Shown here in pieces: positions 59,444 to 61,665 of a DNA stretch of 64,000 nt (position 1 is its first letter; each line of letters begins with the position of its first letter). The position numbers and the translations under genes were made by a program. Origin of the DNA: Thomasclavelia ramosa DSM 1402 (GTDB lineage: Bacteria; Bacillota_I; Bacilli_A; Erysipelotrichales; Coprobacillaceae); the NCBI RefSeq assembly GCF_014131695.1, contig NZ_CP036346.1, forward strand, positions 992,001 through 1,056,000, read 5' to 3'. The notes below the pieces were generated by a model, which saw nothing but the letters and a program-made list of their open reading frames with translations, was not told the DNA's origin and made no database searches.

Positions 59444-59474
59444 TTGACTATTCCCCTAGGTATAGGTTTATACT
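59444..59474 (+). promoter_or_regulatory. MerR-type promoter with 19-bp spacer
   Basis: TTGACT (59444-59449) and TATACT (59469-59474) are separated by 19 bp, the overlong spacing typical of MerR-activated promoters. Between them lies the dyad CCTA-GGTA-TAGG (59455-59466), the expected regulator site. It drives merR and the MutS-like gene. Confidence 0.8.
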
Positions 59475-59495
59475 AGTGATAGTAGGGGGAATAAT

Positions 59496-59738
59496 ATGAA
59501 TATTGGTGAAGTTTCAGATTATTTAAAAATTACTAAAAAAGCAATTAATTTATATGAAGAGAAAGGTTTACTTAGACCCAATAAAAATAGCAATGGATAT
59601 CGTCTTTATGGAGAGGAAGAAATTAAAACTCTAAAACAAATTAAAATTTTACGTTCTCTTGATTTCTCTTTGAGTGAGATAAAGGATATCATTATTAATA
59701 ATGAATATTGTTTTTTGATAATAAGCTTAGTGAATTAA
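59496..59738 (+). CDS. MerR-family regulator, DNA-binding part (upstream of a frame break)
   Basis: The zero frame gives 80 residues: a MerR helix-turn-helix (MNIGEVSDYLKITKKAINLY, YEEKGLLRPNKNSNGYRLYG) and the start of the dimer helix, then ISLVN and a stop. The natural continuation lies in the -1 frame. At 59711-59717 the sequence T TTT TTG is read in the phase of a classic -1 slippery heptamer, and slipping there joins it seamlessly to the frame at 59708-60100 to give 201 residues. A lost T in a run of seven would look the same. GGGGGA lies 5 bases before the ATG. Confidence 0.8.
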   Translation: MNIGEVSDYLKITKKAINLYEEKGLLRPNKNSNGYRLYGEEEIKTLKQIKILRSLDFSLSEIKDIIINNEYCFLIISLVN

Positions 59739-60100
59739 AAATTAGAGATTATGATTTACAAAAAAAGATTCAATATCTTGATCTAGTTAAAAATGATTTT
59801 ATTCAAAATGAAATTATTGAGAATATAGAAGAATATCGAGAATTATTAATTCGTGAATCAAAAGAAGAAATCAAAGATAAAAATATATATGTTGATTTTG
59901 AAAAAATACTAATTGTTGTCTTTACATTTTTTACAACTATAAGCATATGTGGAAGAGGTAGGATATCTGGGGAAATAATAATTATTATTTATCTACTTAT
60001 TTTAATTTGTAGTACGGCTTTATTGCATTATCCGCAATCGCGTAAATTTTTTTATCAATTGTATCAAAAGTTGCAAGAATATAAGAGGAAAGATAAATGA
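59708..60100 (+). CDS. MerR regulator, C-terminal membrane part (downstream of the frame break)
   Basis: The frame contributes about 127 residues after the slip site: the rest of the MerR coiled coil (DNKLSELKIRDYDLQKKIQY), a charged helix and two hydrophobic helices (about VVFTFFTTISICG and IIIIIYLLILICSTALL). No ribosome site precedes its first possible start (TTG at 59708), so it is unlikely to be made alone. The joined protein would be a membrane-bound MerR regulator. It overlaps the start of the MutS-like gene by 4 bases. Confidence 0.7.
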   Translation: MFFDNKLSELKIRDYDLQKKIQYLDLVKNDFIQNEIIENIEEYRELLIRESKEEIKDKNIYVDFEKILIVVFTFFTTISICGRGRISGEIIIIIYLLILICSTALLHYPQSRKFFYQLYQKLQEYKRKDK

Positions 60101-61665
60101 TTTGGTTAATTATTATAAGTATCGTGTTGATTGCAGGAGTATTAGGTTTCTTAAAAATATTAGTTACGAAGAAATATTTGATCCATCAATATAATTTAGG
60201 AGTTGGTGTGCAGTATCGGGATTTTACTAAAGAGTATTATCATTATAATAAAGAACGAAGTATTGACGAAGAAACTTTTATAGATTTTGAAATGCCGCAA
60301 ATTTTAAAGAAAATTAATTTTACTTATAGTGAGATAGGAAATGAGTACTTGTATAATTTATTTTTTAGAGAAAATAATAATTTAGATACTCAAGAAAGTA
60401 TTATTGATAAATTGAATTGTCAAAAAAAATTAGCAGAGAGTATTTATCAGCTGAATAAACTTAATAAAGCATATGTACCGATCTTATCTATTAAAAGAAG
60501 CTTGCTAAATATTTCAGCTAAATCGTGTTTATTAGCAGGGCTGTTTTTGATACTTGATGTGGTTAGTATAATAGCAGCAATAATTGATATAGAGAATGTT
60601 TATTCTGTTGTTATAATGTTATTATTGAGCATTTTAATGAATACCCAATTATCTCAAAAAACAGGAAAAATTAGTCTTCAGATATCATTAATTAATGATA
60701 TGCTTCAAATTACCAATAAATTATTAAAAATAAATATTTATCCTGATTCAAATCAGACTTTAGTAATGAACTCATTTATCCATTTGAAGAAAATGACAAA
60801 AACAACATATTATTTTAATAAAATAAAACAGTTTGATATTTTCAATATTTTGGAGTTAATGAAATCATTATTCTTTATTGATATATTTCAAGCAGTTAAA
60901 CTTAGTAGGAAAGTAGATCAAGTACAAAATGATATCATGGTTCTTTATGAGAATATCGGTTTGTTGGATGTATGTATTATGATTAAGGTTATTCGTAGTC
61001 TTTATGATACTTGTATACCAATCATATTAAAAGATGAAAGAGTTGAGATAGTAGAGGGGTATCATTTATTGATAGAAAAACCGATTAAAAATACTGTTGT
61101 AATATCAAATGATACGATTGTTACTGGTAGCAATGCCTCTGGGAAATCTACGTTTTTGAAAATGTTAGGTGCCAATTTGTTGTTAGCAAAAACCTTAAAT
61201 ATTAGTTTTGCAAAGGAATTTAAATATTATCCGTTTGCTTTGATCTCATCAATTCATATGAAGGATGATATTATGAATGGAGATAGTTTTTATGTTAAAG
61301 AAATCAAACGTTTAAAGCAAATTACTGAATTTGCTAATAAGCAAAAATCATTAATCTTAATTGATGAGATTTTAAAGGGGACAAATGAAAAAGAGCGAAT
61401 TATTATTGCGCTGGCATTAATGAAATATTTATTTAAATGCAATTCTATGACGATTATTACTACTCATGATATTGAATTAACAGAAGTCTTTGATCAAGTA
61501 GATAAATATTGTTTTAATGATATTAAAAAAGATAATAAAATCATTTTTGATTACCTTATTAAGAAGGGAGTTTGTACTGTTGGAAATGCAATCGCGATAG
61601 TTAAGACATTAGATTTTGATCAAGAAATTTTAAAGGAAATTAATGATAAAATAGAAGTTTTTTGA
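60097..61665 (+). CDS. Membrane-anchored MutS-family ATPase
   Basis: The product has 522 residues. It has an N-terminal helix (2-22), two further helices (about 143-165 and 167-183), a helical region that may match the MutS core, and a MutS-type ATPase domain: Walker A GSNASGKS (344-351), Walker B LILIDE (419-424) with the KGTNEKER signature and TTHD (455-458). DNA-mismatch domains I and II are absent. Membrane MutS-like proteins are known in Firmicutes and Bacteroidetes without a defined role. It overlaps the MerR gene by ATGA and shares its promoter. Confidence 0.85.
   Translation: MIWLIIISIVLIAGVLGFLKILVTKKYLIHQYNLGVGVQYRDFTKEYYHYNKERSIDEETFIDFEMPQILKKINFTYSEIGNEYLYNLFFRENNNLDTQESIIDKLNCQKKLAESIYQLNKLNKAYVPILSIKRSLLNISAKSCLLAGLFLILDVVSIIAAIIDIENVYSVVIMLLLSILMNTQLSQKTGKISLQISLINDMLQITNKLLKINIYPDSNQTLVMNSFIHLKKMTKTTYYFNKIKQFDIFNILELMKSLFFIDIFQAVKLSRKVDQVQNDIMVLYENIGLLDVCIMIKVIRSLYDTCIPIILKDERVEIVEGYHLLIEKPIKNTVVISNDTIVTGSNASGKSTFLKMLGANLLLAKTLNISFAKEFKYYPFALISSIHMKDDIMNGDSFYVKEIKRLKQITEFANKQKSLILIDEILKGTNEKERIIIALALMKYLFKCNSMTIITTHDIELTEVFDQVDKYCFNDIKKDNKIIFDYLIKKGVCTVGNAIAIVKTLDFDQEILKEINDKIEVF

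Follow-up and report, generated by a model that had tools for sequence, protein, structure and literature searches.

The MutS-type ATPase MutS2 rescues stalled and collided ribosomes (PMC12292046), and promoters activated by MerR-family proteins are typified by spacers of 19 to 20 bp with an internal palindrome (PMC1526738). The wider family of membrane MutS proteins is known only as annotation. In the literature searched, we found no description of a membrane MutS or of a pair formed by merR and a gene for a membrane MutS-type ATPase (here, mMutS), and the string 'MerR' occurs only as an author name in an article devoted to transmembrane transcription regulators. The original prediction had proposed such a pair as a candidate undescribed system within the window, by which we mean the whole 64-kb stretch of DNA analyzed (G000:C1:992001-1056000), which holds about 60 open reading frames (ORFs) in a 3.25-Mb single-contig genome. 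The locus comprises the following features:

59444-59474, forward strand: promoter-like TTGACT-N19-TATACT upstream of merR (sequence)
59449-59456 and 59486-59493, no strand: perfect 8-bp inverted repeat TATTCCCC / GGGGAATA, 29 bp between arms, which could be due to chance
59496-59738, forward strand: 5' part of merR, an 80-aa ORF with a MerR winged helix-turn-helix (HTH) (Pfam MerR_1, E 7e-19)
59711-59716, forward strand: T6 tract at which the merR reading frame breaks (sequence; orthologue alignment)
59711-60100, forward strand: 3' part of merR in the other frame, with coiled-coil, two C-terminal transmembrane (TM) helices and a tail (hydropathy; orthologue alignment)
60097-61665, forward strand: mMutS, a membrane MutS-type ATPase of 522 aa (Pfam MutS_V, AlphaFold, VIA-align)
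60097-60162, forward strand: N-terminal TM helix of mMutS, residues 1-22 (hydropathy; model helix 2-33)
60517-60660, forward strand: TM hairpin of mMutS, residues 141-188 (hydropathy; model helices 141-163 and 165-212)
61117-61653, forward strand: MutS domain V of mMutS (Walker A TGSNASGKSTF, Walker B LILIDEI, THD motif, signature-loop serine S397)

Architecture of the membrane MutS-type ATPase

The gene for mMutS is a single intact ORF (60097-61665) whose 522-residue product has the three membrane helices originally predicted, one at the N terminus and two in a hairpin, and matches Pfam MutS_V at E 2.3e-25 (90.1 bits against a cut-off of 30.2). Domain V carries the Walker A and B motifs, the THD/THY motif and the signature serine that place the protein in the MutS superfamily. 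Residues G344, N346, K350, S397, D423, E424 and H457 are invariant in the family alignment, and with its catalytic residues thus preserved mMutS would be expected to be an active ATPase. That the signature serine and the C-terminal segment are conserved suggests that it may operate as a dimeric ATP switch of the MutS type. An AlphaFold model of the monomer, built with an alignment of 58 family members (A3), is confident, with a pLDDT of 88.4. Over residues 41-522, Foldseek and VIA-align both find its matches among MutS, MSH and MutS2 proteins; with VIA-align, superposition on Taq MutS (1ewr) gives Z 27.3 and an rmsd of 3.0 over 313 residues, and on the MutS2 model 9a5o Z 27.0 and an rmsd of 4.6 over 388 residues.

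The claim that mismatch-recognition domains are missing was borne out. When the mMutS profile is aligned with nine MutS1 sequences, the alignment opens in domain III and leaves the MutS1 clamp segment largely unaligned, so that mMutS matches MutS domains III-V while domains I and II (mismatch and connector) are absent. In nearly all family members checked, the TM hairpin falls within this unaligned clamp stretch. We infer that the hairpin occupies the position of the MutS clamp, on the basis of helix order and profile alignment rather than residue-level superposition. The architecture of mMutS is supported by sequence and model alike; its function is inferred.

Beyond the short mMutS of the window, a wider family of membrane MutS proteins (~550 aa) is present in many Bacillota, where the neighboring genes include those for PNP, RNase HI, cytidine deaminase and NrdD, with MutS1 in eight loci. 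In Lachnospiraceae (L083, L085, L086, L088, L126 and others), rnhA often comes after the membrane MutS gene and, in eight loci, mutS follows as well, so that a block of nucleic-acid genes recurs. The window's genome itself encodes a second membrane MutS of ~600 aa (G000:C1:2336357-2337190, L002; L049 7355-9163), which adjoins a gene for a GntR-like regulator and a PTS gene. A membrane MutS relative is also present on thirteen Staphylococcus plasmids (NZ_CP118844.1, NZ_CP103050.1, NZ_CP129376.1 and others), where its annotation reads DNA mismatch repair protein. A further match lies in a record named Staphylococcus phage PhiSepi-HH3 (MT880872.1 131082-142500, L157), together with tsaB/D/E, rimI, ilvD and ilvB in a host-chromosome-like arrangement; phage origin was rejected, as the match sits in a tsaD-rimI-tsaB-ilvD stretch resembling the staphylococcal chromosome. 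In PHROGs, mMutS found only ATPase-level matches of unknown function.

A membrane MerR gene in two frames

Upstream of mMutS, the original prediction had placed a MerR regulator with membrane helices. Both the HTH (PF13411, 68.2 bits against a cut-off of 21.6) and the TM helices are there, but they lie in two frames, a break that the prediction had missed. The frame is lost in the TTTTTT tract at 59711-59716, and the 3' ORF (59708-60100, 130 aa) runs in the -1 frame relative to the HTH half. Judged by alignment with continuous orthologues, for which the two frames were joined solely for comparison, both halves are parts of one ancestral gene. Most orthologues are single ORFs of ~191-211 residues, and merR is continuous in G010, G012, G024, G026, G028 and G032; in G012 it is the ATPase gene, not merR, that is split. 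The 3' half remains open over 129 codons, which at local base composition would occur by chance with a probability of ~6e-7, and the break is therefore either recent, or programmed, or due to an error in the assembly. The two genes do overlap by the predicted ATGA (4 bp, 60097-60100), where their orthologues are separated by short gaps instead.

No NCBIfam equivalog model for metal, redox or drug sensing reached its cut-off for this MerR, and on that ground a metal-sensing role was rejected. Two genera of the family also have longer MerR proteins (~290-320 aa; L151-L155), for which three to five TM helices are predicted and which lack a MutS neighbor.

Distribution and genomic setting of the pair

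Within the family of the window we surveyed 43 genomes, of which 12 carry the short mMutS and 31 do not. The MerR occurs in eight carriers (G000 and G036, where it is broken, and G010, G012, G024, G026, G028 and G032), and a ninth (G039) has a C-terminal MerR remnant in an assembly that shows several split genes. None of the 31 genomes without mMutS has the MerR (Fisher p 3e-6, with no correction for shared ancestry). The proposed MerR-MutS pair, of which the papers searched gave no description, is borne out within one family for eight or nine of 12 carriers, with the reservation that the regulator is frame-broken in the window. No MerR was found in the two closest relatives (G002 and G005), though mMutS is intact in both, nor in G038, where the ATPase gene lies near a contig end and its upstream neighbor is unreadable. 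In the tree, the window mMutS is sister to those of G002 and G005 inside a fully supported clade, and the gene order is merR-mMutS-Nudix in Beduini massiliensis (L053, G010), which falls outside this clade. The simplest history is that merR and mMutS were paired long ago and that several lineages have since lost merR or let it decay, and the best reading for the genus of the window is that merR is degraded or being lost.

A search for the pair across Firmicutes had been suggested originally, and its outcome was mixed, bearing out the stated grounds for refutation only in part: the pair is conserved in other genomes of one family, but most often the ATPase gene has no merR beside it. A recognizable MerR neighbor was not found at 77 of the 79 loci of the wider membrane-MutS search. 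The two exceptions are Beduini, which belongs to the window's family, and Butyrivibrio. In Butyrivibrio sp. INlla16 (L099:1708-4020), the gene for a distant MerR, whose C-terminal part has two hydrophobic stretches, begins 9 bp downstream of mMutS, a gene order opposite to that of the window; as a single case among so many loci, it could be chance. The phylum-wide MerR search spanned 392 genomes and appears to have lacked Clostridia, where pairs may be missed. With one Butyrivibrio locus as the only instance that these searches found outside the family, a broad MerR-MutS pairing was rejected; the association is real, though narrow.

In the window, genes for an HMA-domain protein and a GH2 glycosidase lie between pheT and merR (window:57455-59358), the GH2 gene being divergent from merR and sharing with it a 137-bp intergenic region. 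About 4 kb, containing the GH2 gene, merR and mMutS, separates the HMA-domain gene from tmcAL. In three genomes of the same genus without the ATPase (G003, G004, G007), the HMA-domain gene lies at most ~50 bp from tmcAL, and in G002 and G005 mMutS sits alone between pheT and tmcAL. In other genera, the pair is found between ispH and yqfQ, adjoining a DEAD helicase gene and an AP-endonuclease-like gene. The chromosomal sites that hold the pair thus differ (pheT-tmcAL, ispH-yqfQ or beside a Nudix gene), and its neighbors across loci are pheST, tmcAL, thrE, ispH, yqfQ and the DEAD helicase and AP-endonuclease-like genes. The pair behaves as accessory genes in housekeeping surroundings, without defence genes. 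The suggested role in defence or stress found no backing here: instead of defence or stress islands, the loci have pheST, tmcAL, thrE, ispH and yqfQ as neighbors, and PADLOC gave only weak, partial P-loop and HTH similarity (mad3, 2.7e-5, best stretch 23 residues; mad1, 2.5e-9, HTH only). A defence-island reading was rejected on both grounds.

Promoter-like pair and possible causes of the frame break

The promoter-like pair with a 19-bp spacer is present as predicted. Over its two strands, the 64-kb window holds ~21 such 5/6+5/6 pairs, from which ~0.02 would be expected on one strand of the merR intergenic stretch. The best-match spacer upstream of most merR orthologues is 17-18 bp, and the 19-bp spacer is therefore not conserved. 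The dyad assigned to this promoter also exists, as the 8-bp repeat, but it is centered near the -10 hexamer rather than within the spacer, and its downstream arm overlaps the G-rich ribosome-binding site. Autoregulation of the operon by MerR is putative but plausible.

The T6 tract might act as a programmed switch, by -1 ribosomal frameshifting or phase variation, so that full-length MerR would be made part of the time. A zero-frame T TTT TTG heptamer lies exactly at the break and the frame beyond it stays open for 129 codons, but we found no stable RNA structure downstream of the break (z 0.86), most orthologues are uninterrupted and MerR is also decayed or lost in G036, G002 and G005. We consider such a switch very improbable, the more so as one sequence cannot separate it from a recent mutation or assembly error; programmed frameshifting in particular was rejected, the supporting RNA structure not having been found. 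A sequencing error, with merR intact in the living strain, is somewhat unlikely. It would fit a single-base difference in a homopolymer and the undecayed 3' frame, but no other clearly split gene was noticed among the window's ~60 ORFs, a point in favor of an accurate assembly, and merR is broken or absent in relatives too. With merR frame-broken at the T tract, mMutS is probably expressed without MerR control in this genome, and would in this respect parallel its two nearest relatives, both of which lack merR.

Possible functions of mMutS

We tentatively propose that mMutS is an accessory, membrane-tethered ATP switch of the MutS type, ancestrally under the control of its own membrane MerR. 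The two genes would form an accessory unit of one Firmicutes family (near Erysipelatoclostridium). In this unit, mMutS keeps the core/lever and ATPase domains and carries a transmembrane hairpin at the putative site of the MutS DNA clamp. It would act as a dimer, whose ATP-driven lever movement may be transmitted to this hairpin or to a partner bound to the membrane, instead of to a DNA-sliding clamp. MerR, with its N-terminal HTH and C-terminal TM hairpin, would be a membrane-tethered one-component regulator controlling its own operon and hence mMutS. The more specific proposition that the MutS fold has exchanged its DNA clamp for the TM hairpin, so that the lever works in or at the membrane under a membrane-tethered MerR sensor and the fold gains a membrane function, is rather unlikely. 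Against MerR regulation count the differing promoter architecture (19 bp in the window, 17-18 bp in most orthologues) and the condition of the regulator itself, of which G000 and G036 have a broken copy and G002 and G005 none.

The placing of the Lachnospiraceae membrane MutS beside rnhA, and sometimes mutS, counts against a membrane switch and hints at a role with nucleic acids, which we keep open because of this synteny. Under this alternative, mMutS would be a membrane-docked factor acting on DNA or RNA:DNA structures with RNase HI and MutS-MutL. RNase HI is encoded directly downstream in ~18-20 of the 79 loci and MutS1 at most two genes downstream in eight of them, and most of the genomes in the window's family that bear the pair have an AP-endonuclease-like gene a few genes off. 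All rnhA and mutS cases, however, appear to come from Lachnospiraceae or their near kin and may represent one inherited block, and mMutS lacks the clamp and mismatch domains. We consider this explanation doubtful. It is quite unlikely that mMutS serves a partner protein as its conformational chaperone or reactivase, a role that KamC has by annotation and that MutS2 is reported to have on ribosomes. The top NCBIfam match is indeed KamC, the lysine 5,6-aminomutase reactivase ATPase (E 4e-28), and ribosome rescue by MutS2 (PMC12292046) offers a precedent, but the match reaches 98.5 bits against the KamC cut-off of 300, spans residues 216-471 only, and was not accompanied by any aminomutase genes that we noticed near mMutS.

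The membrane-tethered switch, which we prefer, would have consequences beyond this locus. Membrane MutS-like ATPases occur in many Firmicutes and on staphylococcal plasmids, annotated as mismatch-repair proteins though the parts needed to read and hold DNA are missing. Should the fold act at the membrane, this annotation would be misleading, and a widespread family of ATPases would have a function not yet put to the test. Species with an intact membrane MerR pair could reveal the inducing signal.

Comparison with known systems

Like MutS1/MSH proteins, mMutS has the start motif of domain III and a domain V with all catalytic motifs; unlike them, it lacks domains I, II and the clamp and has three TM helices, and it scores 79.7 bits against the MutS1 mismatch-repair cut-off of 641.7 (TIGR01070). 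Its core resembles that of MutS2, which likewise joins a core to a MutS-type ATPase without a mismatch/connector domain (fold Z ~24-27). It differs in lacking the Smr and clamp domains and in having transmembrane helices, and in hhalign only the ATPase part matches the genome's own MutS2; the TIGR01069 score is 68.1 against 400, and no Smr match was found in Pfam. KamC (NF052383), the best NCBIfam match (E 4e-28), is of similar length, and mMutS falls far below its curated cut-off (98.5 bits against 300). The closest protein to mMutS in the genome is the ~600-aa membrane MutS (ORF of 602-610 aa), which is 37% identical over the ATPase half and likewise has a TM hairpin inside the core, but it has two TM hairpins where mMutS has one helix and one hairpin, belongs to a separate clade and is not accompanied by MerR. 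The window MerR shares the standard MerR_1 HTH with its family and, with transmembrane transcription regulators, a one-component layout with membrane helices; it departs from MerR-family regulators in that a C-terminal TM hairpin replaces the effector domain.
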